Shown here piece after piece: positions 43,351 to 64,000 of a stretch of 64,000 bases of DNA. The translations under genes were made by a program, and so were the position numbers. The stretch's first letter is position 1, and each line of letters begins with the position of its first letter. The notes below the pieces were generated by a model. It was not told the origin of the DNA and searched no databases. It saw nothing but the letters and a program-made list of their open reading frames with translations. This stretch comes from Thelephora terrestris (Eukaryota; Basidiomycota; Agaricomycetes; Thelephorales; Thelephoraceae), in the NCBI GenBank assembly GCA_015956445.1, contig WIUZ02000008.1, forward strand, positions 1,302,001 to 1,366,000, in the 5' to 3' direction.

Positions 43351-46300
43351 ATGTCTAGGACTAGTTACTATGATGGTGAAACACAAGAGAAGCGGATGTC
43401 GAAACATCGAGTCTCGGACGACGACTTGTTTGAGTGAGTCTCACCGTCATCTGTTCGCCTGTGTCTATTCATCGTGTCCTTCAAGGTATACGCTGCGAGT
43501 AGCGTAAGTCTGCTTGGCGATCTAGTCTTTGGTACCGAGAACTGGGCTGATATCACTGGTCACTTTCTCCTTTCAACTGCGCTTTCGTTTCCGCCCCTCA
43601 CAATCCAGATACCTCGGCTATCTTATTCAACCGAAATCTCTCGCATCTCGCCATGATCCCCATGTCGAATCCCGTGAACGCGAGCGTGAGCGCGAACGCG
43701 AACAGTCCAAGATATCATCCCTCTCTAGTTCAATATACTCGATCGGGGATCTCTTCAAGGATGTAAGAGAGGGCTCCAAAAGCGCGAAATTCCCGAGGGA
43801 CCTTCTCAAAGTGTTGGAAAACAAGCTCCAGCTTATCGCAATGGGAAAGGATCCTGCGTGCGTCATGCCCGGAGGTCTCCGTCCTGAACGGTGAACTAAC
43901 CTGATGTGCATACCCAGCTATTCGGACAACCTCGTTCGACGCACGATGGCTGTGTTTTACGGGCAAGTCAAAGACGAAACTTTCCGCCGGCAAATGAAGG
44001 AGAACCGCAAGATAGAAGAGCTCATCCTAATGTTCGCTACAAACGCCACAAACGCTCTCAAGAAAGATCCGTCTCTCGCGGGAGACAAGTGGAAGAGCGA
44101 ACTGAACAATCAGATCGCCCTCTTCGTCAGGCTCCTCCGTGATTGTCTGCGTGGGATGAGTCACGTATCCCCAGAGTTGACGCAACGGCTCGATGTTTAC
44201 ACGACAAAACTCGCGCCTCAACAACAATCTGGGACAGCGTACAGCGATTCGGGATATGACTCGAGCTCTACAAACAGAGACCGTGATTCTGTCATTTCTC
44301 CGAACAAGGCGAGCAAGAGTATTGTCGAAATGCCTCTGGTATTGACCGTTGCGAGACTATTCAAAATACCCGAACATCCTTTGCAAGGGGAGGTTGACAA
44401 AATCAGCAAGTTTTGCACAGAGAAGGTGATCGGGTTTGTTCTGGTCTCTGGATTATGCTGATAGACGATTTACCGACAGGCAGCATTAACAGACTTAAAG
44501 GTGCGTCCAGACCAACACCAGCAGGCAAGCCGTCTCTAATGTCGAGTAACCAGACTTGCCTCAAGAACCTAAACGCTGGTTCCCCTTTTCCTGGCCGCCG
44601 GGAAGACTTCCGATCAGATGCCGCGTTTCAGCACTGGCGAACCCTCGAAACCTCCCATCTTTCCCAACTCATGGTAGTCATGGTGCAGTTCAACCCAGAA
44701 CTAGCAAAGTCGACCCCGGGAGATCTAGGTTCCCTCCAGCAAGCCTCTAACACGCGACCGACTTCGATATATTCACCGTCTGGGAACAACAGGGACTCGG
44801 CGTACCATCCTGGCGGTAGGAACTCTTCAGTGAGCAGCAGAAACTCACGCCTCAGCGTATTTTCTCCAGGAGACCTCGAAGGGGTCGCAGAAGATCTTGA
44901 CGCCGACGAAGACCTACCCCTTGGCCACCACTACACGTATATCCCACCGAACCCTAAAAAGTTCTACAAACGACTCCTCGAGTTGTGCCTCATCGCAGAT
45001 TTGGAGGCCATGCTTTCACCGACTGTGGGTGACGAGGATGAAGTCTCACTGGGAATACTCACTGAAGCGCATATTGAACTTATCAATGAGTGTGCGCTGA
45101 GGTGGAGGATTGGCCAGCCATATCGAGTGTCGTGTTTCCTGGAGTTGATTAGGCAGTTTTACGAACGGAACGAAGTGCCGATCGAATGCATACCAGAAGC
45201 GCTTGCCAACGTAAAGAAAGTGCAACAGGATCTGGATCTGGAGAAGTGGCCGATACAAGATGTAGGTGCATCTGACTTTGAATCTCGACCCGCCTCATCT
45301 TTTTTTATAGAACGACTACCTTGCGAACGTGTATGGAAGTTTGTACTCCGTTTTTCTTGGATCGATCTACCAAGCCCTGGAGTCGATCCCTCAACTTGGA
45401 GCATCTGAGTTAAAGCCATACCTCCGCATACTGGAGTCCATTCAAGACCGCCGGCTCCTACAGCGGTTTGATGTGGATATACAAGCTAGAATAACGGACG
45501 TCCAAGAGCAGGTCAAGATATCTGCAGAGGCAAGCTACCATAGGAAGTTCAAGGAACTGGAGAGTCGGCCAGGGGTCAACAGGGCTCTACCTCTACTGTT
45601 GGTGACGGATGAAATCGAAAAGTGGGCGAAGCTGATGGATAAAGCGTTTAAAGAACCTATTTTAGGGTAATATCCGTGCTTCCCTGGTGTGACGGTTGCA
45701 TCTCTGACTTTGACGAGTGCAGGAAGATCGATGTGGTTGCCTTGGTGGTGGACGTAGTAGTGCCGTTATTCCTCATGGAACTCGATGCGTCATCGAAACG
45801 CTTGTGGCAGGATTCGATGAACGGACCAACACCAGACGTTCCTATCGAAGACCTCTTCTCGTTGTACAGGCGGACGAGGGTGATGATGGACATTTACCAC
45901 GCTTTCTGCCCAAAGTTCGTTCGTTTGCTTCCTACCCGATTGAACTGCTTTGACCATCCTCGAGCAGTGGTGATGCCGAGTTTGACGTTGGTGCCTTCTT
46001 TGAGCCATATGTCAGGCAATGGTTAGTCAACACGGATGATAAGACGACACAGTGGGTCCAAGCGGTAAGTCTTGAACATTTTATCCGACGTATTGCTAAG
46101 TATCTGACTCGACGACAGGCCATCGCCGCAGATAAGGTGATTCCACTAGACAAGGCACCTGACAAGGCACTGATATCGCGTATCCGACGTTAGTTCGAAA
46201 CGGAGGGCGATGAAGGCCATAGTTCTTCGATCGTCGATCTGTTCGACTCACTGCGAAGTCCAATCAACTTTTTGCAAGGTCTTGAGTGGTCCGATGAATA

Positions 46301-48346
46301 TCAAGAAGCCCGGTTCTTTACCAGTTTATCAAAGGTTTGTCCTCGTAGTCCTATTCACCATTTCTCCCGAAAGCTCAGCTTTGTGTAGACCATCAGTAAA
46401 GCCATCGAAACCTATTGCAGAAGTATCGAGGACCTCTTCATGGCCGAGATGTTCCCCCGACCAACCGACCACCTCCAACCGCAGAGGTCTTCCGCGTGGA
46501 TCGAGAAGGCCAAACAGCTCACTTCGCAAGGGGAGAACAAGAAAGTTGAACCGTTCAACTTCTTGCCTGAGACTTGTGTCAAGCTAAACAACGCCGATGC
46601 CGCTCGGCGTCTCCTGGACAACATGTACAGCCAGATGGGAGCCGACAAGATTGCAGAGGTTCTGTCAAAGTCACCACCAGTGCCAGACAAGAGGGAGAGC
46701 GAAAAGTTCCTCTTCACAGTGAAGGTTTGCCTGGCGGAAGACCTGGTGGCGTTGGATTCAAGTCCCTCAGCGCTGCTAGACACGTTCGCAACGCTGAGCG
46801 ACGAGAATGGGGGTAGGCTAGCCAAGACGAGGACCATCTATGAAACGTTGAACCCAAGATGTGCGTATTTTTTCTCAAGGTTTCCTGCGCGTCTCAAATC
46901 AGTTCCAGGGGATGAAACTTTCGATCTTTCGGTCGATAAACCGCTCTGGCTGATGGCCTGCGTCCGTGATCGTGCTTTGATCGGCAAACACGATATTGTC
47001 GGGAGGAGTTACTTCTGCCTCGACCCACGTAGATATGAGGACCTTCTGACCCATGACCTTTGGATGGACCTGGATACTCAGGGTCGGATACTGCTTCGCG
47101 TCAGTATGGAAGGTGAGAAGGACGAGATTGGATTCTATTTCGGACGTGCTTTCAGATCGCTCAAGAGGGCAGAGAGCGAGATGCTCAGAATATTCGTTGA
47201 CAAAGTAGGCTCCTCTTTCTAAATGGCAGGAATATCGTTGACCAAGGCGCCTCGCTAGATGTCGCCGATGATATCCCAGTCACTTTCCCGAAGGGTGGTG
47301 AAGTCCTTAATCAAGCCAGCCACCAACACGGGATCACTGGACTACAAGGGAGTTCTTGGGAACGTCAAAGGATTCTATACATCTGCTCTCGGGGGTTCTT
47401 CGTCAGAAGTGCAGGTCCCTCCGCCACCTTCAGACGGTCCGAGGGCACGTCCCGGGGAGTTGACAGACGTCGAGATCGAACAAGCTATCGTGCCCCTATT
47501 CGACTACTTCGATGCTAACCTGCAGACGCTGAACACGTACTTATCCGACGCGACAAAACAACAAGTGATGGCTAAGGTGTGGAAGGAGATCTTGAAGACT
47601 ATCGAGGGACTGTTGATTCCCCCACTGTCGGAGAATTCGAGTGATATGAAGCCTCTATCCGACAAGGAGGTGGACATCGTCTTCAAGTGGTTGAAGGTAC
47701 TGGGTTGCCTCTACGATCATCCTCCCGCTGACCTTGTACATCCTAGTTCCTGAGGGATTACTTTTATGCTGGCGGGGAGGGACCTGTACCACTGGAGACG
47801 CTGCAGAACCAGAAGTACCGTGACGTTGTCTCCATCCGATTGTACTATGACTGGCACACGTACGCCTCTCAGACTTTTTATCGTGAGATAAATCGCTGAC
47901 CTTACGCTTCCCGCCAAACAGAGATGCCCTCATGGAGGAATATGTACGACTCATGCAGAACATGCTGCGGTCAACCTCGACTATAAAGAAGAGGGCGAAG
48001 AGCGTCTACCACTCAAAGAATCTTGGCACGATCAAAAACAGGAAGCAACAGAAACAACAAACTGCAAAGGAGGACTCGAATGGCGAGATTATACTGAGGA
48101 TTCTGCGAATGAGGTATTTACTCCCAGTTGAAACCCGCATCAATCGTGCTAAACCGATCCGATAGGAGCGGAACTTCCGACTTCATCGTTCAACAGCTAC
48201 GCACTATCAGCAGTCTTCAAGCTGAGCAAGAAGCGCGAGAGAAGGCTAAGGTGCAGAGGAAGTTGAATCGTCCACGTCAAGATGGTCAAGGCGCGATTCC
48301 TCCCGTCCCCGCTATCCCGCCTGTACCTCCAATGCCATCCAATTAG
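43351..48346 (+). CDS. Munc13-like protein with MHD and C2 domains
   Basis: Munc13/UNC-13 proteins prime vesicle fusion; fungal members act in exocytosis and cytokinesis. Seventeen exons give 1,360 residues, all in phase: 43351-43433, 43486-43503, 43609-43857, 43918-44425, 44480-44500, 44554-45261, 45311-45666, 45723-45914, 45968-46064, 46119-46136, 46194-46334, 46389-46860, 46909-47204, 47259-47696, 47747-47859, 47922-48113, 48166-48346. An Arg/Glu-repeat tract lies near residue 55. The MHD1 region is in exons 8-12 (IDVVALVVDVVVPLFLMELD, FFEPYVRQWLVNTDDKT). A C2 domain follows at about residues 900-1050 (KFLFTVKVCLAEDLVALD, YETLNPRWDETFDLSV), then MHD2 (KVWKEILKTIEGLLIPPL, VFKWLKFLRDYFYAGGEG). 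The tail is Pro-rich. Exons of 18, 21 and 18 nt are needed for continuity. Membrane association is inferred from C2. Confidence 0.9.
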
Positions 48347-50299
48347 CGTTCCTGGTTTTCTAGAAATCCTCTCATGCTCTCGACCATATATACGGATTGA
48401 TACCACTTCTTTCAAGATTGTATTATGATATACCGCTCTTTATTATGACTGGGGAATACCAGGTGTTGTGAGGGATCCCGGTTTGGCGAACATGGAACTT
48501 GGTGGCGATTGGCACCAGGAAACAGGGAACCTAGTGCTGGATTGACGTTGTAAAGGCTTCTGGACCCACATTCTGTGGATGGCAACGAGAGCTCGAGTGC
48601 GGTGCGAAGTCATTGAATACTCGGTACGTATCAGTGTCGACCTCAGAACCTGCTTCCAAAAGGTGCACCATCGCAACTCGGTGCAGGTAGGATAGGTAAA
48701 TAACTTGGGACTCGTTGATTCGGGGTTTGTTGGTTTGTTGGTGAAATACTCATTATTAACATCAACGAACGATATTACCAACGGTTGGTAATCCACCAGC
48801 CTTTACAAAGGTCAGTAAACTTTTCGAAACTAAGCGCAGCGTTGGATAAATTATTACCTGCCATCGGGCGGTTTGGTTCCCGCCAAAAATTGGCGTTTCA
48901 ACGACTCACAAAACCTTTGCCTAGTATTCCACCCGCACACTATATAGCTACACTGATAGTGACCGCCGTGTGCGCATGCCTGTTGCTCCCATTCTTTCTT
49001 CCATGCAATTTTCTCCACAGGGAAAGTTTTGCTGTTCGTGGATCAGGAGATATGGCCCACCACCTGCGGTGAGCGTATTTTCAGTCATGCCGTGTTCCTG
49101 TCCAAGCGGTTGCGTACATGAGACAGGGAGGATAAATTTCAGTTGCCGCCTCAGTGGGGTCGTATGCGTAACGGCACCACTTTTCATGAACTGGCAATCT
49201 TTTCGTTCGTCGCCCTTCCTCAGCGGATGGTTTTACTAGTAGATGTCATGTTCGTTAACTTTGCACTCTTGGTCTCGGACAGGCTGCATCATCACGGTCT
49301 TAGGAGACTTTGTTGATCACCCGCTTCAGCGGTGACCGGATCGCGGTCAACATCGTTCCAACTCCCACGAACTTTCATTTGGGACGGTGGGACTGCTTAG
49401 GAGTGCTCTCGGCGTTGACAGCTGGTTTTAAGTGCGTATACGGACTCCCGGCTCCTTTAAACAATTTGAAGCTTGGAAGGCGATTGCAGTGGTGTTTCGC
49501 CTAGATTTTCCTGTGGGCATTGGTGTAGACAGGACGGAAAACGCTCCTACATGGAAGCTCCGATTCATTCGACGGTACGCTACGCGGAGCTTTGCTTCCA
49601 TAAATCCAGCAGCTCAAGGTGAGCCCATTCACGAAAGATTCCCTGATAGAATTTTGCCCCAAGCCGCTCAGAAGCATAACGGGTATACGGTGGTCCCACT
49701 GAAGCCTTTTGGGTTTGCAAAAACGCGTGATATTGGACTGCGAGGTTTCCTGAGGGGTCTCCCCTAGGTATCATGTCAATCCGCGTCCACCCCGCGTCTG
49801 GATTCGAGGGTGGATTCCGACCTATCCTGAGGGTCAACTCTCCAGTTTTTATCGGGAGCCACTAACCCCAAGATGTCCCTAAGCCCAGTGGACACCCCCC
49901 CTCCCCCCCGGCTGATTCCTGCCACTTTCCGATGGCTACGCTTACCGAGATCAATTGTGCATCCCGACATCAGAATAAGATGATCGCACCTCAGCCTTGT
50001 ATCCTTTTGTGCTTGAGGATCAGGTAAACTGCTTCACTTATGACATCTCGTCAGTGTTCAACTCTGTGTTGCACTACTGAATTCTAATCGCACTTTGGTC
50101 GCCCTCGTTGGAAATCACGGGCTCCCCGTGAAACGAATCGTGACCAAGATATTCCCTATTTGTTTAAACCCGCATTGATACCTTGCGACAAGGGCAAGTC
50201 TTTGCGATAGGACCCCTTGAAGCTTGATGCTCTGTGTAGGCCGCCTGGGTCATCAGTTACTCCAGAGCGTTTGCCTGTGTTATCACCTCAATTCCTGGA
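48347..50299. other. Intergenic region without recognisable genes
   Basis: These 2 kb follow the Munc13-like gene. Open frames are under 120 codons on both strands and match no family I know. A C-rich run lies near 49896-49910. Apart from the palindrome at 48774-48792, nothing stands out. The gene density drop marks the start of the accessory right end. Confidence 0.4.
48774..48792. repeat. Perfect 9-bp inverted repeat with one-base centre
   Basis: ATTACCAAC and its exact reverse complement GTTGGTAAT flank a single G. It lies about 430 bp downstream of the Munc13-like stop. It could be a protein-binding site or an element end; no partner repeat was seen. Confidence 0.6.
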
Positions 50300-51420
50300 A
50301 CAAGGGATAAGTATGGGGCATTCCAGGCAATCACTAACAGGATGTTTCCTTTTCCGACGTTCGTTCTACCAATGTTACCATTGGGAATCTCGAGGTCGAA
50401 GTAGGCGTCACGACCTTGATTGTTGACGCGTTGCAGGCCAAATTCACCACGCCCGAGGTTGATTAAGAAGGTGGCGTGGCGTGTGTCGAGCCCGAAGGAA
50501 GGTTCTGGAGGACATTTCGGTGGACTTTCCTGCTGGTACCCTGACAGTGACCAAATCATCGGCGGTAGCGGGAGCGGAGAGGTACGCCTACGGTTCCATA
50601 CGTCTCCTTCAGGTTTGATCCTATGCTTCACCCGTTCCTCTAACAGACCGGAAGTACCCGCTACGCGACTTTCTTACCGTCACCAGTGCATATGTCACAC
50701 AGACAAACGTGTTGTGACTTCCGCCTCTCACTGTCCGCGAAACATTGCTCCACGCAGCATCCCTGCGACTCCCGTAGGAGGCCACTCCTCGTCCCCAGCA
50801 GCGAAGGCAGCTGGTAGAAGAGATCCTCCTCGAACTTGGTCTCAAGGAATAGACTGATACGCGGGTCGGTGATGGGTTTAAGAAGAGCGGGTGCTCGGGG
50901 GGAGAGCGGCGAAGAGTCGGCAAGAAACCCGAGCATCCTATTCCTTGACGAGCCGACGACGGGATCGGATGCCACTAGTGTTTTCCGCCTCGTCGAAACC
51001 TTGAAACATCTTGCTACCCATCACCACCACCATTCACGAGCCCCGATCAGACATTTTCTTTCTATTCAGTAGGCTCACCCTCCTATCGAGGGGTTCCAAG
51101 AGACAACTGGATATGGCTCTAGATTGGTTCAACCCATTGGAACGAGAGGAGTTTCATAAGGTACGTAGGGATCCATTCGTTGGGCCTCTTCGCTTGTTCA
51201 AACGGCCCATAGGAACACGCCGACGGAGCGTACTCCATGGAATCGTTCTTCTTCGTATACCTAATTCTCGAGGTACCGTTCGAGATCACCTCGATCTCCC
51301 TGCTACTTATCGCAGTGAACCTGGAGCGAACCGTGTTGATGTACTTCACCTCCACTCAGGTTTCCTTCTGCATGGTTAACTGGGGGAGACTCTTGGAACA
51401 AGCTCGTCGTCGATAGCATT
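50300..51420 (+). pseudogene. Decayed ABCG-type (White/PDR half) ABC transporter
   Basis: Plus-strand fragments in all three frames follow the order of an ABCG transporter. They are NVTIGNLEVEVGVTTLIVD (near 50370-50430), EDISVDFPAGTLTV (near 50510-50550), the Walker A remnant IIGGSGSG in another frame (near 50557-50580), DFLTVTSAYVTQTNV (near 50665-50710), LTVRETLLHAASLRLP, EEILLELGLKE, SGCSGGERRR (signature region), SILFLDEPTTGSDATSVF (near 50935-50990) and IHEPRSDIFFLFSRLTLLSRG (near 51030-51090). Stops follow QTNVL and LGLKE. The Walker A frame shifts before the catalytic Lys-Thr. Membrane-spanning segments are not readable beyond about 51400. The gene cannot make a functional ATPase. The intact version would be a plasma-membrane or vacuolar exporter. 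Confidence 0.75.
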
Positions 51421-51959
51421 TGGTTTGCGACAAACATCACCAACTCAGCGGCATCGATCGCGATCGTTCATGGCTGGTGAGCACTCTCCATGTTTGTTAT
51501 CAAGTTGCTTGTTCTGAGGCCGGTATCTCTAGGTGTGGTGTCTATTGACATGTCCGCGTTTTTCAAGGCTCTCCGCTCAAATACGCGTCCGTCAAAGTGT
51601 TTACGGACTTCGAGTCCACCTGTACGGACGCGCAGGGACTTGCCGACGGCGTACGTGGTCTTGAGGTGTCAAAGGCCGATTTCGGAGTCGCTTGAGGGGT
51701 GACCGCGCTCAAGTTGAAAAGAGTCATGCTTGGGAACTGAAGCCACATTTATATTTTACTTCTAAGAGCTGCACTCTGTATTTGATACGGAAACCAAGGC
51801 TTTCAAATTCCACCTGTTGCTGTATGTCCGTGGGTCCAAATGACAAATTTGATGCATTGCATAGCAACTCCGCGCTGGAATGTCGCACTGTTCGGGGACG
51901 CGATCGGGGATCCACACTGTTGTAATTAAAACTGTCTCCTCGCTACCGCCAACAAGCGA
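51421..51959. other. Spacer between ABC pseudogene and hypothetical gene
   Basis: These bases may include the eroded 3' part of the transporter (an Asn/Thr/Ser-rich reading near 51420-51480). I find no intact frame. Minus-strand frames at 51563-51989 have no domain. Confidence 0.4.
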
Positions 51960-52854
51960 ATGCCTGGTCCACGAAATTCGAAAAGACAAAAGAAAATAAA
52001 CGCGGTCAAGGGTAAGAGGCGAAAGGGATCACAGACGTGCGAGACGGAGGCCGAAGCTGTCGCCACTCCACAGATCGGTGAAAACGTAACACCGTCGGAC
52101 TTGACGCCACACGCGGAGGAGGGGCAGGCTGTCGTTATGGCGGACGTGGAGCAGCGCGTGGAGCTGAGTGAGCAGTTGCTTAGAGAACCTCCCGTCTACG
52201 ATCCAGGGACGGGGCCCCGAGTGAAGTCGATGGGCGAGTTTCTTCGGTCGAGTTTCGCGTCTGAGCCGACGTTGGATGACGAGCTTTGCGCGGAGTTCGC
52301 GCAAGAGGAGATGTTGGAGATGCTGAGGGAGGTCCTGCCTGAGGAGATGGCCCTGGTAAGTCCCGAACTGTGTACCCTGGGATCATTGATCTGAGACTAA
52401 AAGTGGGCGGTAATGAATGAAGTGCGTTTGGTACAACAAGAGCCGGCGCCGCTCGCGCGTTTGTCCAGCGTGTTGGAGGATTTTTCAAACCGGGGACGTG
52501 CTTTCAAGTCCACTCCGGGGTCTGGAGTTACCTCGAATACCGCACAAGGTTTATCCGGAACTGGTGGCAGAGCAGGGGATCAGCGGACTCTGTATGCGCT
52601 CTTTACCTTCCCCGCCTTGATGGAAATTAATTTTCGCAGGTTCAACCGTCTGTTTCGTCCTCGCCTCGATAAAATACCCGGAGGCCATTCGTCTCATATT
52701 TGGGCGGAGTGCGGCGGAAATGGAGGAGATCACCTGGGAGTGTCTGAACGCTGCTGCGGGAACAGACGTCGAGCCGGATGATGGTGGACTCTCATTGATA
52801 CTCAGGATGACGAGGCTGGACGATTTGGGACTCGGGGAATTACTATTTTCATAA
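51960..52854 (+). CDS. Conserved basidiomycete protein of unknown function
   Basis: Exons 51960-52355, 52423-52591 and 52640-52854 join in phase to give 259 residues. The N-terminus is basic (MPGPRNSKRQKKINAVKGKR), then acidic Glu/Val-rich. A conserved middle reads YDPGTGPRVKSMGEFLRSSF, LDDELCAEFAQEEMLEMLREVLPEE and WYNKSRRRSRVCPACWRIF, with a CxxC pair that could bind zinc. The third exon reads VCFVLASIKYPEAIRLIFG and ends SLILRMTRLDDLGLGELLFS. I recall similar uncharacterised proteins in Agaricomycetes but know no function. The strict in-frame splicing and natural stop support a real gene. Its position beside the NACHT gene, 94 bp upstream on the same strand, may be chance. Confidence 0.8.
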
Positions 52855-52948
52855 TTCCTTGATGGATCTCTCTGTCTTTTTATTTCATAACTCTCTCACC
52901 ACGACCACGATTTGTTCCCCCATCTCTCTTTTCCCCCTCCCACCTCTC

Positions 52949-55732
52949 ATGTCAGACCAATCCCCGGAAGAAAAGGACCAAGGGCAAGAAGTAGACTGGG
53001 CCGCCCTTGAAATTGCCGTTGACGAGATAGTCGCCGCTCTCACCCTAGTACGCGGCGACCTCATCACAATCTTCGCTAACCTCACAAGTCTAAATTCCCT
53101 TTTGCCGGTTACAGTTCACCGGCGACTTCGACTCATTGAACGGAGACGACACCGCGCTCCTCTCCGACATAAACTATAGAGCTCAAGGTCTCCGCCAGGC
53201 CGTAGGCAACGACGAGAAGCACACGTTGTCGCCTGAAGCCATCGTAAGGTACGTCATTTACGGACACGGCAGAATACGATCTAGCACCCACCGGGCACGT
53301 GCATTCCACACGGCATTCTAAACCGGGACGCGAACTGTTTCGATGTGCGTGACTGACGCCCACTTTCCCCTTTTGGCAACAGGGCTTTGGTGGCTGTGCA
53401 ATTTGATTTACGTCATCTACCTCAACACGACTCCGAGCATGGGCTTAAAATAAAGTCGATATGCAAGGTGCGTTTGGTCGTGTCATGCGCTCTCATGAAC
53501 CTCATCGCCAAAAAGGCAGCGATCTTGTTAGTAGACCCGTCCAGAAAACCCGAAAATTCCGACATTGCGCCGCAACAGTCACCATCGGCAAAGGGCAAGG
53601 CACCCATGAATCCCTCAGCGAAAGTACGTGTTATCTCCGCTCTCAGATCAAGCAATATGAACTCATCAGAACGTCTCACAGGAAACCGTCCACGATGGTT
53701 CGTGATCGGTTTTCCCTCTTTCGCTTCCCCGTTCTCAAGCTCGTTCCATGCATCAGACCTCTTCCATAGACTCAAGGCGGCTCACGGAGCCAGATGTGGC
53801 AAAGCTATTCCCTGTGCCCCAAACACTCGTGCCGAGCTACTCGACAAGATAACCTTGTATCTATTGTCGCCAGCCCTCAATGACTCTACCACATCCGCGG
53901 AAGACCGCATATGTTGGCTCGTTGGTTCTCCTGGGATCGGAAAGTCCTCTATTGCTCGTTCCTTGGTCAACACCCTCGGCGATCGCGCGGTCGCTTCATT
54001 CTTTTGCTCGTCATCTTCCAGAGACACCAGCAATGTCAGGAATATCATCCCCACCCTTGTTGCACAGCTCGCACAGAGACCCAACTGGCAAAGATTTAAA
54101 GACGCGCTATCGAGGGCGCTGCCCTCTGAAGGTGATTCCTCGACCCTGATTGGGAGAAGGGCAAGTTTGGAGGCGCAATTCCAGAAACTCATGGTCGAAC
54201 CCTTTGGAGCCACCGCCCTGCTCAAACCCGCTGTAATCATTATCGATGGACTCGACGAGTGCGTCGACATTGACGTGGCCGCAAAGTTCATCACGTACCT
54301 CGGTCGGTGCCTGGAGAAACTGCCCGCGAATCTCAAGTTCTTCATCTCGAGTAGAAACGATCCTCGCCTGCGGAGGGGAATGAGTCTAGTCGACGCTGCG
54401 TGCAGGGCGGGCAAGGAAGACTTGGATCCTCCCCCACTTTCCGTCAAGAGAATCGACCTCGACGCGGCCGAATACGATGATTCTACCCGAATTGATATCG
54501 GGACCTACATTCGCTCGGGCTTTGCCAAGTACAAAGGTCTCACCTCCCCTTCATCCACGACAAACTACCACGACACCTTTGCGTTCCCGCGTGAAGATGA
54601 GCTCAGGCGTCTCGTCACTAAATGTGTAGGCCTCCCGTTCATCGTCGCCAGCACCATTTTCAGACATATCACGGCCAAGGATGCCGCTGATCCGAGAGAG
54701 AGAATGAGGAGGTTCTTCAATTTGCGGCTGACAGATGTGTCATTCAGCGCGAACGCCGATGCGAAGATGCAGCGGCTGAATGAGGTCTACGCTCACATCA
54801 TCTCTGTCACTCTTGATGACGCCCGAAGAGAATCAAAGTCCAAGGAAACCCCAGAGCTTTACGAAGAGGTTAGGATGGTCCTGGGTTGTTTCATGGTGAT
54901 GCAGCGCCCATTATCTATCAACGCGCTGGCGGACCTGCTCGGACTAGAGGTATCAACCGTTCGGGCGGCCCTCGAGCGGTTCCGAGCTATTATACCCATG
55001 CCTAGGGACGAGAATGAAGAGTTGAGTATCTTCCATGACACTTGGAAGACATTCGTCGCAGTCGCATCTCGGAAACCGCCGTTTACCGGTCCGATCATCC
55101 CGGCCTTGGACCTACGGATATACCTCGGGAAGATGACCGTTCGGACTTTGACGTATCTGGTGGAACGCCTCCATCGCGCGTACGTTGATCACGGTCAGGC
55201 CAGGCTTGGGAAAGAGATTGCGGATACGATGAACAGGCCGCTAGGCTACTCTTGTTCGTACTGGGTCCCTTACCTTCAGCTGTTCCAAGCCGCCATGGAA
55301 GATGAAGTCAGCACCAGCCCACAGACTCGGGAAATCTTGGAAGTTCTCAGGACCTTTACCCTAGATAACAGGGGCCTGCTTCGGATCTGGCATAGAGCGG
55401 TCCTTGCCGGAGGGGCTGAGAAAACTGCCGTTCTCGGGTTTCTTCAGGTAAGTGACGAAGCAACTTGACTTGGGAATTCTCACCAACGCCGCCACGCAGG
55501 CGACAGTTGACGAACCCGAGGGCAATGAAATTTACCTCGCATTTGACAGGAGGGAACGGGCGCCCCCTACAACGTGAGATTATCCCATATGATACCCACC
55601 GTTTGCAGACCCTTAGAGAACTTCTGTAGGTCGAATAGGTCGAGAATGGAAAAGCTCATCGGAAGGCTCGACGAACTGTACCGTCGTTTGGAGATGGTCG
55701 GTACCAAATCGAGACGTCCAAACATTCCATGA
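52949..55732 (+). CDS. NACHT-domain STAND NTPase (NLR-like)
   Basis: Exons: 52949-53047, 53115-53248, 53383-53467, 53516-53623, 53682-53697, 53757-55447, 55500-55573, 55609-55732; 776 residues. The N-terminus is acidic with a predicted helical DUF-like region of unknown type. The NACHT domain starts near residue 170 (NTRAELLDKITLYLL). Walker A is WLVGSPGIGKSS and Walker B is VIIIDGLDECVD. The sensor-like FFISSRNDPRLRRG follows, then a winged-helix-like segment (MVMQRPLSINALADLLGLEV). No WD40, ankyrin or TPR repeats follow; instead the protein ends in a short coiled tail (MEKLIGRLDELYRRLEMVG). Such proteins often act in self/non-self recognition in fungi. The 48-nt intron at 53468-53515 is in frame and may be coding. 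The last intron is only 35 nt. The 3' end is copied at 59.35 kb. Confidence 0.85.
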
Positions 55733-56092
55733 TCGCTTATACCCCCCTCCTCTTTTCCTGACACCTTTTTTTAGAGACGCGGACGCAGTGCTTTCAAGTA
55801 GAGGCCTTTAATCTTTATACCTGCTTTAGATTTTTTGTGTGTAACTTTTACGTTTGGTGGACGGTCAACGTTGTAATTACTGTAGATTGCTTTCTTTCTT
55901 GCTCCCGCTCCTCGTAGATTATCGTTACGTCTGGACATATTTCTTGGGGTTTCAACGATGTACGCTAATTCATTACGTTCTTTCACGGACCAGTTTTTGG
56001 CGAGGGCCGGTCGCAGGGGGACGTCCCTCTTGAAGATGGATGAATCTCGATGTTGCAGTCACATGATCGATCGGAACGGTCCCTCGCGTGTC

Positions 56093-58150
56093 ATGACGCG
56101 TGAAGATGGGTCCGCCTTTGAGTTCAAAAAGAAGAAATCCAGGAAGGAAAAAGGTGCGTATATGCGTTGAATTACCTTGCTCAAGTCTCTCGACGCTCAA
56201 CGACAAAGTTTCTTTTACCAGAGAGTTCCTCGACCGATCACGGGACGAAACGAGCCGAAGCGGCGCACCCTACAACACAGGACAGTGGCCTTGGCGCAGG
56301 GGCCACGGAGAGGAAGAAGAAAAAGAAAAAGACCAAGGATACCGAGGGGCTCGCTTGGCCCCATATAGGAGATACCCCAAGTGAGGGATCAAACTTTCCC
56401 CACATGAGCAAAAGTTCACCAAGCCGTATGATGTAGTTGCAGAGATACCCAAGAAGAAGAAAAAGAGGGGCAGGACCGAGCCCGAGGCTAAAACCGTAGA
56501 TGGATCAACCGTGGAGCCTACCACGTTCATGGAGGCTGTTGCCCGAAGGCTCTCCATTCCGGAACTTTTCCTTGTTTTGAACGAGAAACTTGGCGAAGAA
56601 TGCTCTAAGCGGCTATCCTTCGCACTTTCGGCGGCATCGATTGAGTCCGAGGTGCGTTCCAGACAGTCCTGCGAGATGCGCCTAGAGTTGTGGAATTTAA
56701 TAACGAATTTTAGATCAAGGCTCTCGAAACAAGAGCGCAAGATATCCAGAGGTTGATAATCACCCTACGGAGCATGTCGCGACCCGTACACAGGTTACCG
56801 CCGGAGCTCATTTCCCACATCGCTCAATACGTCCTCGATGAAGACGATGTTGACGCGAGGTCGATTGTTCCACTCACTCACGTATGCCGATTTTGGCGCG
56901 ATTCCATCATCTCGACATCAGAAATCTGGGCGCTGATATCCAATGAGCGGATGGAGCTTACGGAGCTCAGCCTGGAGCGTGCCAAGGCCCTCCCTCTTAC
57001 CGTCCACCTCAGGCTGGGTAAGAAGGGAAAGCGAGGACCCATCAACCTTCTCCTGCCCCACGTGGAGAAAATTGTGTCCTTTGGTTGTGTTAACCCCAAG
57101 GCAGAAGAACTGACCCGGCTCCTGGATTTTCCCAAATCAATGCCCAAACTACGATCGCTGTCTCTCGAAAGGGCCGAACCCATCGGCCAGAATCTACCCA
57201 TCGATTCATTCGATTTTTCGACTCATTTCAGGTTGAGGGAACTCTCGTTGCACAACTTCCTCATCGTTCCTTCATTCCTCAGCCTCAGAACTCTCACCAA
57301 ACTCATCCTATGGGATCGCAATATCCGAATCCACGTCGACGTACTCCTGAGCTTTTTGGAGCAGAACTACTCGCTCGAGAGCGTGAGCTTGACGATCAAG
57401 TTCGAGGAACCTTCCCTCTGTCATTCGCATCGAAAAACTCCAGTCGGAAACGGACTCTATCACCTGTCGATCACGAGCGACGACACGACGAGCATCCGAG
57501 CGCTGATTTCCGGCATCGCACTCCAGGGGGGTGGAGCTCTGAGGATCTCTCTTAATGGAAACGACGCAGGAGAGACCGGATTGACCGGTGTCATTTCCGG
57601 TGTTTCAACGAACCACCTTCCGAATCTATCGTCCCCTATCTACATGGAATATGCACCCTTCCCGAGGAGAATTACACTGGTGGGGCCGAATGGGAGTTTC
57701 TGGTATGGGGGCTCCCTCCCCACGGAGGGTCCTTTTCCAGAGTTTCCCCTGCTCCCACTTGCAAGTATTCGAGAACTCCGCCTCGTTTTCCGCAAGCATT
57801 GTGCCCTCGAGTGTGCCCTCGAGCAGTTCCGTCTGTCGTCCTTCCCTTCTCTCGAGATACTCGCTGTCAATTACGGGGTGTCATTCCTCTCCACAGTTCT
57901 ACCGGATTCGACATCTTCTCCTTCCTTGAGAACGCTCGCGCTATTGGATTGCAAGATCAGCGAAGAGTTCATGAACCAATTGGCACAAGTCGCCCTCGAC
58001 CGCGAAAACGCTTCGACTTCGCTTCGTCGCGTCGTCATCATCGATTCGGAGGGACAGTTTCCTTCTGCGACGTCGGTTGAGCGGCTCAGGGGGTGCGTGT
58101 CAGTCGTTGAGTTGCTAGAGGGGAAGGAGTTTCCCGAGGATCTGTCGTGA
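56093..58150 (+). CDS. F-box protein A with lysine-rich N-terminal extension
   Basis: Exons: 56093-56153, 56222-56380, 56443-56651, 56714-58150; 621 residues, all phases consistent. F-box proteins bind Skp1 and select substrates for SCF ubiquitin ligases. The first three exons encode three lysine-rich blocks (FKKKKSRKEK, ERKKKKKKTKDTEG, IPKKKKKRGR) that resemble nuclear signals. Next comes a helical module (MEAVARRLSIPELFLVLNEK), a short coiled coil (IKALETRAQDIQRLI), and an F-box near residue 170 (HRLPPELISHIAQYVLDED, PLTHVCRFWRDSI, IWALISNERM). About 400 residues of Leu-rich, degenerate repeat-like sequence follow. If the extension is not used, the start could be the ATG at 56529. The protein ends at a TGA where copy B reads on for 14 codons. 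The 5' exons are absent from copy B. Confidence 0.8.
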
Positions 58151-58811
58151 AACCGTGATGCATTGCGGTGCCACGGTAGGTGTATGTATGAACGCCTTTG
58201 TGCCTGGCATATTTATCTATTGTTCACGATGGCTGGTCCGGAGTACAATCACCGCAAGGGGTGGGTAATCATCTCGTCCTTTTATATGAAGGTGTGTTTG
58301 ATGCCCCCCCTGAAGGACAAATCAAGCGTCATTTTGTATGTGCGTTTTATACACCGGAGCTGGACCCTGAGGTTTGAGGCCGGGGTTACAGCTGTACAGC
58401 CCTGAACTTGTCCGGTCGCGATGGGAATGAAGCTGGATGAGTTCGAAATCACTTGAAGCGACGGCTGTGCGGAAGTGCCTGCCGTGAATCTGCCGATTCC
58501 GAGATGGTCAAATCGCAGCTAAGTATTCTTTCTCTTTCGTTGACCAGCCCTGCAGGAACCAGCTTTATATAGGATGGACCCTGAGTTTGTTATCCAAACC
58601 GGCGTGCTTTCACGTACTGGGTAATTTGACGGAGGGACCTTTGTGAAAAAGCCGTTTTGTGTAGTTTCTCTAAACCGTTCGGAAGCGTGACACTTGGGAG
58701 TGAACCTCGTGAGCGCTCTCTGGTGCTGGCTGAAACTTTGGCGCCTATCTCGCTGGCGGTTCCCTCATCAGCACAAAACTGGGGCCCCTTGATAACCATC
58801 GCGATACCATC
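58151..58811. other. Duplicated spacer after F-box A
   Basis: Non-coding sequence closely matching 61554-62284. It contains the F-box A 3' UTR and the former promoter of F-box C. Frames on either strand carry no domain. Confidence 0.6.
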
Positions 58812-59540
58812 ATGTTCATGAGGGCTGTGAGGGCTGCTCGAATGCTCTCTATACAGAGCTACTCCAACTGCTGGGCGAGAAGCTTGACGAAAAATACTCC
58901 GCGATGCGAGAAATCCCACTTCATTTTGCACTTTCGGCGGGATCGCTCGAGCCTGAGGTTTGTTCCAGTTGTCCCGTGGGATACACTCATGAAACTGCGG
59001 GACCTGACGGCGAACCATTAGATTGAAAATCTTGAAACCCGAACGCACGAAATCCTGCGATCCCTGCGTTGTCTACGGAACAGGTTGCGACCAGTGAACC
59101 GGCTGCCTCCAGAAACTATTTTTCACATCGCTCAATGCACCCTCCAGGAAAAATCCTGGGACGCGAAGCATATCGTTCCACTCACTCACGTCTGCCAATA
59201 CGGGCGCAATTCCATCGTATCAACACCTGAGAATTGGACGCGGATATTCAACGGTGCGAGCAGAATAGCAGAGTTGAGCCTGGAACGTGCAAAGTCGGCT
59301 CCTCTGGATGTCTTCCTCGAGTTTAATTTGGAAATACCTCGCATATCACAGGAGGAAACGGGCGCCCCCTACAACGTGAGATTCTTCCCTATGATATTCA
59401 CTGTTTGCAGATCCTCCAAGAACTTCTGTAGGTCGAATAGGTCGAGAATGGAAAAGCTCATCGGAAGGCTCGACGAACTGTACCGTCGTTTGGAGATGGT
59501 CGGTGCCAAATCGAGACGTCCAGTCACAAACATTCCGTGA
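58812..59540 (+). pseudogene. F-box pseudogene C, truncated and fused to a NACHT tail copy
   Basis: The first exon (58812 to about 58958) aligns with exon 1 of F-box D but has lost one base near 58852 (ATACAGAGC against ATGCCAGAGC), which shifts the frame. The second exon, after TTAG at about 59023, reads IENLETRTHEILRSLRCLRN, then the F-box NRLPPETIFHIAQCTLQEK and PLTHVCQYGRNSIVSTPENW. The Trp of the usual QYWR motif is Gly here. At about 59345 the F-box homology stops inside the protein and continues without a break into the copied NACHT 3' end. The frame stays open through the unspliced NACHT intron copy to SRMEKLIGRLDELYRRLEMVG and a stop at 59540. It is a duplication-junction chimera and is probably not functional. 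Confidence 0.75.
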
Positions 59541-59894
59541 TCGCTCATACACCCCCCTCCTCTTTCCCTGACGCCTGTTTTAGAGACGCGGGCGCAGTGC
59601 TTTCAAGTAGAGGCCTTTAATCTTTATGCCTGCTCTGGATTTGTGTGTGAAACTTTTACGTTTGGTGGACGGCCAACGTTGTAATTACGTACTGTAGACC
59701 GCCTCCTTTCTTGCTCCCGCTCCTCGTAGATTATCGTTACATCCGGACATACTTCTTGGGGTTTTGACGTTGACTTTAATTCATTACGTTCTTTCACGGA
59801 CCAGTTTTTGGCGAGGTGCCCGTCGCAGGGGGTGATGGGTGAATTTCAATGTTACAGTGTGATCGATCGGAACTGTGGCCGCTCTGCGACTACC

Positions 59895-61553
59895 ATGTCC
59901 ATAAAGGCTGTTGCCCGAAGGCTCTCCATTCCGGAACTTTTCCTTGTTCTGCACGAGAAACTTGACGAAGAATGCTCTAAACCGCCATCCTTCGCACTTT
60001 CAGCGGCATCTATTGAGTCCGAGGTGCATTCCAGAAGCCCTGCCAGATGCACCTAGAGCTGTGGAATCTGATGACGAATTTAGATGAGGGCTCTCGAAAC
60101 AAGAGCGCAAGATATTCAGAGGTTGATAATCACTCTACGGAGCTTGTCCCGACCCGTGTACAGGTTACCTCCGGAGCTCATTTCCTACATCGCTCAACGC
60201 GTCCTCGGTGAGGACGATGTTGACGCGAGGTCGATTGTTCCACTCACTCACGTATGCCGATTTTGGCGCGATTCCATCGTCTCGACATCCGAAATCTGGG
60301 CGCTGATATCCAATGAGCGGATGAAGTTTGCGGAGCTTAGTTTGGAGCGTGCCAAGGCCGTCCCTCTGACCGTCCACCTAAACCTGGATAGGTTGAGGGG
60401 AAAGCGAGGAACCCTCGACCTTCTCCTGCCCCGCGTGGAGAAGATCGTATCCTTTAATTGTATTAGCTCCAAGGCAGAAGAACTGACCCGGCTCCTGAAT
60501 TTTCCCAAATCAATGCCCAATCTACGATCGCTGTCTCTCACAAAGCCCAAATACGCCGGCAAGAATCAACCTATCGATTCATTCGATTTTTCGACTCATA
60601 CCACGTTGAGGGAACTCTCGCTGTCCAACTTCCCCCTCGTCCCTTCAATCCTCAGCCTCGGAACTCTCACCAAACTCATCCTGTGGGATCGCAATATCCG
60701 AATCCACGTCGACGTACTCCTGAGCTTTTTGGAGGAGAACCGCTCGCTCGAGAGCGTGAGCTTGACGATAAAGTTTGTGGAACCCTCCCTCTGTCATTCG
60801 CATCGGCAGACTCCAGTCGGAAACGGACTCAAACACCTGTCGATCTCGAGTGACGACACGACGAACATCCGAGCGCTATATTCCAGCATCGCACTCCAGA
60901 AAGGTGGAACTCTGGAGATCTTTCATTCTGGACAAAACGCAGGGTTGACCGGTGTCATTTCGGGGGTTTCAACGAACCACCTTCCGAATCTATCGTCCCC
61001 TATCTCCATGGAATATGCACCCTTCCCGAGGAAGATTAAGTTGGTAGGGCCGAATGGGACTTTCTCGCACATAGGTCCCGTCACCACGGAGGATCCTTAT
61101 AGGGAATTCCCCCTGCTCCCACTTTCAGGTATTCGCGAACTCCGCCTCGATTGCCGCGGATCGTGGGTCCTCAAGCAGTTCCGTCTGTCGTCTTTCCCTT
61201 CTCTCGAGATACTCGCTGTCGGTGGTAGTTCCAAGGTGTCACTCCTCCCCCCAGTTCTGCCGGATCCGACATCCTCTCCTTCCTTGAGGACGCTCGCATT
61301 ATTGGATTGCGATATCAGCGAAGACTTCATGAACCAATTGGCACAAGTCGCTCTCGACCGCGAAAACGCTTCGACTTCGCTTCGTCGCTTCGTCATCATC
61401 GATTCGGAGGGACAGTTTCCTTCTGCGGCGTCGGTCGAGCGGCTCAGGGGGTGCGTGTCAGTCGTTGAGTTGCTAGAGGGGAAGGAGTTTCCCGAGGATC
61501 TGTTGTGGAACCGTGATGCATTGCGGTGCCACGGTAGGTGGAAGTATGTATGA
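59895..61553 (+). CDS. F-box protein B, paralogue of A
   Basis: Exons 59895-60023 and 60084-61553 give 532 residues. The sequence parallels F-box A from the helical module on (MSIKAVARRLSIPELFLVLHEK, then ALETRAQDIQRLI, then F-box YRLPPELISYIAQRVLGED with PLTHVCRFWRDSI). It differs by scattered substitutions and small indels in the C-terminal region, for example around residues 170-180 and 330-350. It lacks the lysine-rich exons of copy A, because the equivalent 440 bp are missing from the unit. The C-terminus extends 14 codons past the A stop and ends CHGRWKYV. The ATG at 59895 is preceded by duplicated non-coding sequence. As in A, the Leu-rich part may be a substrate-binding surface; that is inference. 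Frames are fully intact, so the gene is likely active. Confidence 0.82.
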
Positions 61554-62284
61554 ACGCCTTTGTGCCTGACCTATTCACTTATTGTTCACGAGGGTTCGTT
61601 AGGAGTACAATCACCGCAAGGGGTGGGTAATCATCTCGTCCTTTTATATATAGGGATGCGTATGATGCCCTCTTGAAGGACAAATCAAGCGTCATTTTTT
61701 GTATGTGCGTTTTATACACCGGAGCTGGACCCTGAGGCCGGAGTCACAGCTGTACAGCCCTGAACTTATCCGGTCAATGAAGCTGGATGAATTCGAAATC
61801 ACTTGAAGTAGCGGCTGTACGGAAGTGCCTGCCATGAATCTGCCATTAATACTGGTTCCGAGTTCCTTGGATCGCAGCCTCGGAGTATTCTTTCTCTCTC
61901 GTTGACTGCTGGCCCTGCAGGAACCGGCTTTTGGAGGATGGTCCCTGAGTTTGTTGTCCAGACCGGCGTGCTTTCACAGGCTTTCACGTACCGGGCAATT
62001 CGACGGAGGGACCGGGACATTTGTGAAAAAGCCGTTTTCTGTAGTTTCTCCTGGACAGGACTCCAAGCCGTTCGGAAGCGGCGTGTCACGTGTGAGCGCT
62101 CCCCGGTGTTGGCTGAAACGTTGGCGCCCGACTGGATGGCGTCTATCTCGCTGGCGATTCCTAAGGTACCGTCCCCTCGCAAACCGTTCCTCCTCCGCCT
62201 CTGAATTCGAGGCTGGATTCCAGCCTAGGCGATTCCCTCCTCGGTACCAAACTGTGGCCCCTTGATATCCATCGCGATACCACC
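61554..62284. other. Duplicated spacer before F-box D
   Basis: Counterpart of 58151-58811 with small insertions, one of them a short CTTTCACAGG-type local repeat near 61970-61985. It must hold the F-box D promoter. No coding domain. Confidence 0.6.
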
Positions 62285-64000
62285 ATGTTCATGAGGGCTG
62301 CTCGAACGCTCTCTATGCCAGAGCTACTCCAAGTGCTGGGCGAGAAACTTGACGAAGAATACTCCACGATGCGAGAAATCCCGCTTTCTTTTGCACTTTC
62401 GGCGGGATCGCTTGAGCCTGAGGTATGTTCCAGCTGTCCCGTGGGATACACTCATGAAACTGCGGGGCCTGACGGCGAACTATTAGATTGAAAATCTTGA
62501 AACCCGAGCGCACGAAATCCTGAGATTCCTGCGTTGTCTACGCAACAGGTTGCCACCAGTGAACCGGCTGCCTGCAGAAATTATTTCTCATATCGCTCGA
62601 TGCATCCTCGAGCTCCAGGAAGAATTCGACGCGAAGCCTATCGTTCCGCTCACCCACGCCTGCCAATACTGGCGCAATTCCATCGTATCAACACCTGAGA
62701 ATTGGACCCGGATATTCAACGGTGCGAGGGGAGTGGCAGAGTTGAGCCTGGAACGTGCAAAGTCGGCCCCTCTGGATGTCTTCCTCGATCTTGATTCGGG
62801 GAAAGAGTTCAATTACTTCGACTCTGACGTTGGCCTCGACGTCGACGTAACCCTCGACTTCCTGCTGCCCCACGCGCACAACGTCGCTTTCCTGAACTGT
62901 TTCGGATTCGCTTCAATAGAGCTGACCAAAGCTCTTCCTAATTTCCCTAAATCTATGCCCAACCTACGATATCTGACTCTCACTGGTAACGGAATGGACG
63001 CTCAGGATCGGAGTCGCGCCAGTGATCCATTCGATTTTTCAACTCATACGCTGAGAGAACTCTCATTGGAATACTTCCCCCTCCTCCCCTCCTTTCTCAG
63101 CCTCAGGACTCTTACCAAGTTCGAACTCCGCGGTCCCTGCACCAACCTCCATGTTGACACCATTTTGGGGTTTTTGGAGAGGAACCGATCGCTCGAGCAC
63201 GCAATCTTCTGTGTAGATTTTGAAGACTCCCTCCGTCGTTCACAACGTCAAACCCTGGCCAAAACCACTCTTAAATCCCTGTTGATCTATTGTTACAAGG
63301 GGAGGGACGTCAAACCACTGGTCTCCAACCTAGCACTCCGGAAGGGGGCAGCTCTGGAAATTTTGGACTTCGGCTCCGGAGGGCTGACGCGCCTTCTTTC
63401 CGGTATTTCTACGAACCACCTTCCGGGTCTGTCGTCTCCCTTCTCCATGGAATACCAAATCTTCCCGAGGAAGATTCGGTTGCTTTGTTCAGACGGAAGT
63501 TTATCATACACCTCATCATGGACCTCTGATGGACACACCCCCTTTGGGGAGGAGTTCCCTCTGCTACAACTTGCCGACGTGCGGGAACTTCGCCTCAAAT
63601 TCTACGGACCGTGTTTCTTCTCCCAGTCCCCCTTATTGCCCTTCCCCCCGCTCTACCACTTGCCGTCTTTTCCTTCTCTCGAGATACTTGTTATTGACGG
63701 TTCCATCGACGACGATTCCATCTCCAGTATTGGTGGCCCCATCAAACTATCCCTCTCCACTATGTTACCGCACCTTACATCTTCTCCCTCACTACAAACC
63801 CTCGCGTTCCTGGATTGCTCTATCACTGAAGATTTCATGGGTGAATTGGCGCGGGTTGCTCTCGACCGCAAAAACCACACCTCGGCCTCACTGCGTCGAG
63901 TTGTGATTGTGAATTCGACAGGACGTTTTCCTCCTGCAGGTTCGGTTGGGCGGCTCAAGAAGTGCGTGTCCATAGTTGAGGTCTTGGAGGGGAAGGAACT
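62285..64000 (+). CDS. F-box protein D, 3' end outside the window
   Basis: Exon 1 is 62285-62422 and exon 2 starts at 62487 and stays open to the last base, giving about 550 codons so far with no stop. The layout matches A and B: a helical module (MFMRAARTLSMPELLQVLGEK), a coiled coil (IENLETRAHEILRFLRCL), and an F-box near residue 70 (NRLPAEIISHIARCILEL, PLTHACQYWRNSI, NWTRIFNGA). Leu-rich repeat-like sequence follows (SMPNLRYLTLTGNG, TLRELSLEYFPLLPSFLS, PSLQTLAFLDCSITEDFM). The last visible residues KCVSIVEVLEGKE match the last 15-20 residues of A and B, so only a few codons are missing. It is a more diverged member than A and B. Pseudogene C is a truncated copy of this gene. Confidence 0.82.

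Follow-up and report, generated by a model that had tools for sequence, protein, structure and literature searches.

How did an array come about in which a NACHT gene is followed by a series of F-box genes and by a copy of its own 3' end? This question is raised by the right-hand part of the analysed stretch of DNA (the window, 64,000 nucleotides of the Thelephora terrestris genome). The locus offers a compact case of fungal F-box array growth, combined with a duplicate that may have been turned into something new, and both can be dated relative to their neighbours. The following features are relevant:

53357..55732, + strand: NACHT (NPHP3_N-type) NTPase gene (model), main frame 53357-55447 and tail exons 55500-55573 and 55609-55732; the main frame is read from a stop to a donor site, and 53357 is not a fixed start
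55533..59334, + strand: duplication unit 1, with the NACHT-tail end, a spacer, F-box A, a second spacer and the 5' part of F-box C; collinear with unit 2
56079..56520, + strand: helicase-derived insert, which duplicates the initial exons of a gene for a DEAD-box helicase; 91% identical to G000:C56:377425-377856 and absent from unit 2
56093..58150, + strand: F-box A, chimeric 624-aa model with exons 56093-56153, 56222-56380, 56437-56651 and 56714-58150
58812..59540, + strand: F-box C, an exon-1 remnant followed by an F-box exon that continues into a copy of the NACHT tail; the frame is open from 59022 until a stop at 59538-59540
59325..59334, + strand: junction of the D-type F-box exon with the NACHT-tail exon, placed by eye in a three-way comparison
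59335..62799, + strand: duplication unit 2, with the NACHT-tail copy, spacer, F-box B, spacer and 5' part of F-box D; collinear with unit 1
59895..61553, + strand: F-box B, exon 1 59895-60023 and exon 2 60084-61553
62153..62236, + strand: 66-bp dispersed repeat (62162-62227) with a 9-bp target-site duplication on either side, restricted to unit 2
62285..64000, + strand: F-box D, exon 1 62285-62422 and exon 2 from 62487; its end lies 34 bases beyond the window

Layout and common origin of the two units

A self-comparison with blastn revealed three collinear direct blocks that span both units with a similarity far beyond chance: 55533-56080/59335-59876 (86%, bit score 649), 56518-58758/59890-62141 (84.5%, 2553) and 58755-59331/62228-62799 (88%, 742). 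In an end-to-end alignment, 2960 of the 3294 aligned bases are identical, introns and spacers included. The diagonal is continuous through the spacers and is broken by only two large gaps, which stem from an insert of 442 bp at 56079-56520 in unit 1 and one of 75 bp at 62153-62227 in unit 2; this bears out the statement of the initial annotation that coding and non-coding DNA are both conserved. The gene order that it had read from the sequence, NACHT, F-box A, truncated F-box C, NACHT-tail copy, F-box B and F-box D, is correct as well, with C being directly fused to the tail copy, and its limits of 55548-62790 are off by no more than about 15 bases. Between the units, the longest stretch of identity is 86 nt, in the NACHT tail, a length reached by a fraction of 0.012 of shuffles. 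No inverted pairs of at least 40 bases were detected in 50000-64000. The 66-bp repeat in unit 2 was also considered as an introner, i.e. a mobile intron. This is unsupported, since none of the 14 empty sites gave a longest open frame that exceeded the longest of 40 control positions, a weak test with loci of only 1.2-1.8 kb and controls from the same locus.

The initial annotation had ascribed the structure to a single direct duplication with its left break in a 3' exon of the NACHT gene and its right break in a D-type F-box gene. The diagonal, the dS values, the tree and the even divergence agree with this proposal, the right break being in exon 2. Divergence is uniform over nine segments (chi-square heterogeneity p=0.50) and over the four non-coding segments alone (p=0.56). 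Moreover, dS is 0.16 for A/B and 0.13 for C/D, and the other 26 pairs among A-H range from 0.37 to 1.21; in the tree, A+B, C+D and G+H are each paired at 100/100. Thus, the uniform divergence and the agreeing dS values of A/B and C/D fit one event for the duplicated part, and we assign a probability of about 0.85 to the view that the stretch holding A-B and C-D is one direct tandem duplication of limited scope, which does not account for E-H. The duplication as such is ordinary.

It is conceivable that two or more separate duplications, of A to B and of D to C, came to lie side by side by chance, and the growth of the wider array through several duplications lends this idea some credit. However, it is very improbable, because the diagonal crosses both spacers and the NACHT tail with only the two inserts interrupting it, and independent events would require identical end points and the same age to give even divergence and matching dS. 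A head-to-tail join of two divergent haplotypes of a single locus by the assembler would give a similar structure, and the assembly appears to contain some redundant sequence: contigs C29 and C12, a putative haplotig pair, are 99.69% identical over 9.6 kb, although this pair is the only yardstick and C29 may be a segmental duplication. Immune-type loci can also be far more polymorphic than this pair. Nevertheless, we hold an artefact of this kind to be hardly credible, because the units are about 10% apart as against 0.31% in the putative haplotype pair, a frameshift and a lost F-box tryptophan set C apart from D, a second tandem pair (G/H) exists in the same array and no further near-identical copy of the locus was listed in a genome search that scored 40 of 126 candidates. 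When the left flank was searched against the whole genome, no second copy was listed either, a weak result since the window's own site was also missed.

Contrary to the initial supposition, the single tandem duplication is not recent. Among the 3294 aligned bases, 334 differ between the units; K2P distances in the two long spacers are 0.10 and 0.11, and each of the units has an insertion of its own. Near-identity, as expected of a population-level duplication, is thus lacking when judged against the difference in the single putative haplotig pair. Nor does the duplication explain the whole array, in contrast to the initial annotation. Four more F-box genes, E, F, G and H, lie within about 9 kb after the window edge, and their dS values (G/H 0.37, C/E 0.53, D/E 0.575 and 0.8-1.2 for the remaining pairs) indicate that further, older duplications are needed.

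The junction and how it may have formed

The junction exists as initially described; its position is not 59345 but about 59325-59334, i.e. about 10-20 bases earlier. By eye, the possible microhomology at this site amounts to about 4 nt (GAAA) at most. Longer homology between the flanks of the breaks was not found, the score of a 200x200 alignment being reached by a fraction of 0.348 of 500 shuffles. As the sequences at the breaks are unrelated and have at most a few bases in common, end-joining or microhomology-guided template switching would be a likelier route than unequal crossing-over. Unequal crossing-over at repeats flanking the breaks was rejected because the flanks are devoid of homology, and crossing-over between F-box paralogues should yield a hybrid F-box gene, of which none was seen. 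Judging from this one assembly, a single direct duplication took in some 3.4 kb of an F-box array that already existed and the end of the NACHT gene, leaving one NACHT gene with its tail, the A-type F-box genes A and B, a full D-type gene (D), and a D-type stub (C) with a spare NACHT tail.

Segmental duplications without long homology at the breaks are also described for yeast, where they are attributed to microhomology/microsatellite-induced replication (PMC2518615). There, 5-10 bp of microhomology or microsatellites are involved, whereas the maximum here is about 4 nt. Thus, this process is only a candidate mechanism for the present locus.

A helicase-derived patch in F-box A

The sister genes A and B differ by the 442-bp insert, which the initial annotation does not mention. 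This insert matches the beginning of a gene for a DEAD-box helicase at 395 of 432 aligned positions (91%). The donor gene encodes DEAD (76.8 bits) and Helicase_C (103 bits) domains downstream of the shared start, and its PDB matches include many DEAD-box helicases; it is presumably DBP3-like. A protein search with the donor N-terminus hit two places only, the donor and the insert. The insert retains the donor's introns (GT-AG, at the same positions), reading frame and start codon, and it is joined in frame with F-box A, so that coding exons of two parents form an open, four-exon chimeric model of 624 aa. By eye, the patch replaces about 16 bases preceding the old start codon of A. This codon is ACG in A, ATG in B, C, D, E, F and G, and a slightly displaced ATG in H.

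Since the patch reads in frame into the F-box exon, A may make a chimeric protein. Judging from the sequence, we put the odds a little above even that one putative protein combines an F-box with a lysine-rich N-terminus from the helicase and a leucine-rich-repeat-like region. It is also plausible, at somewhat less than even odds, that the helicase piece is inert filler and that A starts at a second, in-frame ATG at 56527, two codons past the lost start and still present, or stays unexpressed. The A protein changes quickly, and in neutral simulations the frame and splice sites of the patch survive in 0.20-0.64 of trials (37 down to 10 changes, no indels), which makes the open frame of the patch by itself weak evidence. 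However, a mere filler does not sit well with the retention of frame, start codon and both introns, the in-frame join and the loss of the old start codon. Furthermore, exon 2 of A stays free of stops in just 0.07-0.15 of neutral simulations (95 or 67 changes), and therefore A is probably still a gene.

Copy A would have received the patch at about the time of the duplication or afterwards. The dS between patch and donor is 0.129 (8 of 67.7 sites), about equal to the 0.13-0.16 of the duplication itself and indistinguishable from it, which would also suit an insertion before the duplication followed by loss from unit 2. This order of events is unlikely, because the start codon in unit 2 is at the place typical of the array, no trace of the patch was seen there and an insertion after the duplication is simpler. 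Chimeric genes formed by exon capture share with A that a host gene acquires foreign first exons in frame; the partners here differ, being a DEAD-box helicase and an F-box gene. To our knowledge, no such pair has been recorded, and none is named in the titles listed, which represent part of the literature found. As the unpatched sister B, the donor gene and the patched A coexist in one genome, the effect of gaining a helicase N-terminus is directly testable.

The encoded proteins and the wider array

The four F-box proteins align with one another, and A exceeds the Pfam cut-off for F-box-like (27.2 bits; cut-off 24.3), with B (22.6), D (18.1) and C (14.2) below it. No LRR model exceeds its Pfam cut-off in these proteins. 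A structure model of an F-box protein is poor (mean pLDDT 60.8, residues 17-91 below 50) and gave weak PDB fold matches, the nine that reach an E of 0.001 or less having TM-scores of 0.19-0.43. Chains of an EDS1-PAD4-ADR1 complex and of NLRC4 are the two best matches of this low-confidence model; LRR chains and F-box/LRR chains (D3, MAX2 and TIR1, and lower down COI1 and Skp2) are also weakly matched.

We take A and B to be SCF ubiquitin-ligase adaptors, as is general for F-box proteins, in which the target-binding part would diverge and the F-box be retained. Over their whole length, omega of A/B is 0.72 and not significantly below 1 (p=0.07). The F-box (residues 1-90) has an omega of 0.35 (p=0.02), and nonsynonymous changes are rarer there than in the remainder (p=0.012). 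Divergence outside the F-box is not uniform, as residues 285-381 have an omega of 0.50 (p=0.04) and residues 91-187 one of 1.58, which is not significantly above 1 (p=0.34). Polarised nonsynonymous changes number 53 in A and 29 in B (p=0.011), synonymous ones 14 and 15; A and B show no significant difference in the ratio of the two types of change (p=0.13).

F-box C is probably a decaying stub: a 1-nt loss causes a frameshift in its exon-1 remnant, and it lacks an F-box tryptophan that is present in D. The NACHT frame of its tail is readable only if the 35-nt intron is retained. More speculatively, the block might have fed two putative fusions: a working A chimera, in which the lysine-rich helicase N-terminus would redirect the SCF adaptor into the nucleus or the nucleolus, and a C protein in which an F-box joined to the NACHT helical tail might compete with the neighbouring NACHT protein or serve as its adaptor; we regard this as decidedly unlikely.

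The NACHT gene itself scores over the Pfam cut-offs for NPHP3_N (82.5 bits; cut-off 24.8) and NACHT (33.2; cut-off 26.7), and a NACHT or NB-ARC domain is what marks an NLR-like STAND NTPase. Its two short tail exons show GT-AG splicing and are open up to a TGA, the second intron comprising merely 35 nt. For the main open frame, the Pfam matches with E up to 1 include no C-terminal repeat sensor (WD, ANK, TPR or LRR). Its highest-scoring paralogues share 31-34% identity with it across some 500 residues, and shorter matches reach 43%. A survey of fungal NLR-like (NACHT) repertoires gives 1,589 hits in 22 species for agaricomycetes (PMC4986451). The present genome fits this picture with at least 72 scored loci and a NACHT domain over the cut-off, and the gene differs by the lack of a detected C-terminal repeat domain and by its distant paralogues.

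The initial annotation had stated that the event doubles an F-box gene beside an NLR-like NTPase. This is too simple a description, as C looks decayed and A looks chimeric, and a special meaning of the adjacency finds no support. Of 72 NACHT loci (72 of 83 rows, the last 11 being second pieces of listed loci), two have an F-box gene within 5 kb (2.7 expected), one of them the present locus, four within 10 kb (5.3 expected) and six within 20 kb (10.6 expected); rows on C12 and C29 may be one locus counted twice. Proximity is thus not above expectation, with both gene lists being lower bounds: the F-box list comprises the 150 scored of 441 candidates, which include only A and the outlying gene I from this neighbourhood. 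F-box genes cluster with one another: 42 pairs lie within 10 kb (5.5 expected). F-box arrays grow in tandem in plants, too. Tandem-array growth of F-box genes in nematodes likewise involves clustered copies of which some have decayed (PMC5041008), whereas the present array belongs to a fungus and its duplicated block includes the end of an unrelated NACHT gene.

Structure, origin and age of the tandem duplication

The initial annotation ascribed an array of NACHT and F-box genes to a single, recent tandem duplication. The window corresponds to G000:C59:1302001-1366000. When it was compared with itself by blastn, three collinear direct blocks of 84.5-88% identity were found, spanning 55533-59331 and 59335-62799, and the gene order agrees with that annotation (NACHT, A, C, NACHT-tail copy, B, D). 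A global alignment revealed that 2960 of 3294 aligned bases are identical between the two units. The duplication is real, was correctly described and is ordinary in kind. In seven further self-matches (65-71%), an A-type F-box gene is paired with a D-type one from this region.

Features of the array (window coordinates unless stated otherwise)
53357-55732 (+): NACHT gene (NPHP3_N-type NTPase)
55533-59334: unit 1, with F-box gene A and the 5' part of C
59335-62799: unit 2, collinear with unit 1, with F-box gene B and the 5' part of D
56093-58150 (+): F-box gene A, predicted chimera
56079-56520: 442-bp insert in unit 1
L009 4981-9116 = G000:C59 ~1370981-1375116 (downstream of the window): tandem F-box pair G/H, ~2.26 kb apart, 80% DNA identity, dS 0.37

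A joint origin of the units predicts equal age in every stretch. Nine segments were compared, covering exons and introns, the tail exons and two spacers. Their K2P distances range from 0.066 to 0.158 and show no heterogeneity beyond sampling (chi-square p=0.50), nor do those of the four non-coding segments alone (p=0.56). A and B have a synonymous divergence (dS) of 0.16, C and D one of 0.13, and the values of the remaining 26 pairs among A-H lie between 0.37 and 1.21. In a nucleotide tree, A+B, C+D and G+H are each paired at 100/100 support. Past the window end, four more F-box genes (E-H) follow on the same strand within ~9 kb, and I, a more distant relative, is located ~16 kb on. G and H are a second tandem pair, older than A/B and C/D. 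Since the array extends to E-H with this older pair, the single duplication accounts for no more than A, C, B and D. In exon 1 of F (L009 ~2590-2870), there is a 4-base gain relative to its neighbours, and the N-terminus or start of F may differ.

Nor is the event recent, as the units are ~10% apart, as compared to 0.31% between two stretches on contigs C29 and C12 of the assembly (40.6 Mb, 60 contigs). Moreover, each unit carries one sizeable private insertion. The duplication is older and smaller in scope than had been claimed. The C29 and C12 stretches (G000:C29:20000-29999 and G000:C12:2725500-2735499), which are 99.69% identical over 9.6 kb, are cautiously interpreted as the two haplotypes of a single locus, the alternative being a very recent segmental duplication; both contain NACHT loci and a nearby F-box match. 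The longest run without any difference between the two units measures 86 nt (59419-59504 and 55617-55702) and lies in the NACHT tail exon. A run of this length was reached in 0.012 of 3000 shuffles and may reflect either constraint or local conversion.

At the junction (~59325-59334), the D-type exon 2 abuts the NACHT tail exon. The 200-base flanks of the breaks align no better than shuffles, 0.348 of which reach the score, and by eye the parents have GAAA in common, which makes end-joining or template switching the likely mode of duplication. In yeast, duplications of such kind have been described with 5-10 bp of microhomology (PMC2518615). The NACHT gene has NACHT and NPHP3_N domains above the cut-off, a domain scan of its main frame found no repeat domain, and its best-scoring paralogues share 31-34% identity over ~500 residues. 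Among the loci scored, F-box genes are not enriched next to NACHT genes in the genome (2 of 72 NACHT loci within 5 kb; 2.7 expected) and, therefore, the breakpoint common to the NACHT gene and the F-box array is most simply a positional accident.

A possible helicase/F-box chimera

What goes beyond the initial annotation is a possible helicase/F-box chimera that formed on one duplicate. The insert at 56079-56520 is absent from unit 2. At 395 of 432 aligned positions (91%) it agrees with the beginning of a gene for a DEAD-box helicase, the donor, which is located on contig C56. Downstream of the matched part, the donor encodes a DEAD domain (76.8 bits) and a Helicase_C domain (103 bits). According to the gene model, the insert contributes the donor start codon, the first two introns and part of the third exon. 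The modelled frame of A runs from the insert into F-box exon 1, across the F-box intron and up to the F-box stop, using the same GT-AG introns as the donor. The predicted chimera comprises 624 codons, with the stop included in the translation length. The former start codon is ACG in A, and the next ATG is two codons downstream. We estimate the probability that A is expressed as a helicase/F-box chimera at about 0.55. An intact frame and intact splice sites are by themselves weak evidence of selection for the chimera: when 37 down to 10 changes were simulated under neutrality, both remained intact in 0.20-0.64 of the cases. Insert and donor differ by a dS of 0.129 and a dN of 0.076; by this dS, insertion and duplication are similar in age, and their order is a parsimony argument. 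The donor N-terminus as a protein query gave 5 matches at 2 places, donor and insert only. None of the paper titles listed mentions this helicase/F-box chimera.

Divergence of the F-box copies

Between A and B, omega is 0.35 for residues 1-90, the F-box part (p=0.02), 1.58 for 91-187 (p=0.34), 0.92 for 188-284, 0.50 for 285-381 (p=0.04), 0.67 for 382-478 and 0.72 overall (p=0.07). Nonsynonymous changes are rarer in the F-box than elsewhere (12 of 205 versus 102 of 854 sites; p=0.012). Polarisation by the outgroups F, G and H, which left 54 changes unassignable, gave 14 synonymous and 53 nonsynonymous changes in A and 15 and 29 in B; A has the excess (p=0.011), and the difference between the ratios of A and B is not significant (Fisher p=0.13). 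There are five gaps in the A/B exon (3, 9, 2, 10 and 6 bases), and the frame is kept because those of 2 and 10 are adjacent and total 12. PF12937 was above the cut-off in A alone among A-D. The PDB matches of a low-confidence structure model include D3, MAX2, TIR1, COI1 and Skp2, and its leading matches are a chain of the EDS1-PAD4-ADR1 complex and NLRC4. A putative F-box/LRR identity is supported by PF12937 in A and by this model. In mushroom-forming fungi, gene groups associated with complex multicellularity contain ubiquitination genes, and F-box proteins are named among these (PMC8893723).

For C/D, omega is 0.93. One base of exon 1 that the seven other aligned genes kept is missing from C, and C lacks the F-box tryptophan present in the eight others (A, B, D-I), so that C is probably a stub; F has its own 4-base gain near the lost base.

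Dispersed repeats and shared stretches

62153-62236 and genome-wide (G000): dispersed repeat, 64-89 nt

When up to 3 mismatches were allowed, the 32-nt 3' part of this repeat matched 132 sites and a control pattern matched 0. Of these 132, 17 copies in retrieved loci were inspected, and 15 of the 17 are flanked by a direct duplication of 8-12 bp, which is 9 bp long in 9 of the 15 and has the same starting base in 13. The 5' end is variable, and the uniform 3' end is partly owed to the search pattern. That the duplication length is nearly fixed and the 5' end variable is odd for a SINE and for a DNA transposon alike, and an introner test gave no support for an introner. F-box-bearing stretches are common to G000:C7:800000-836000 and G000:C10:60000-90000, at 81-97.5% identity piecewise and with some pieces inverted. 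Another dispersed repeat at ~45039-46742, with copies of ~92-94% on contigs C8 and C12, is probably a transposable element.
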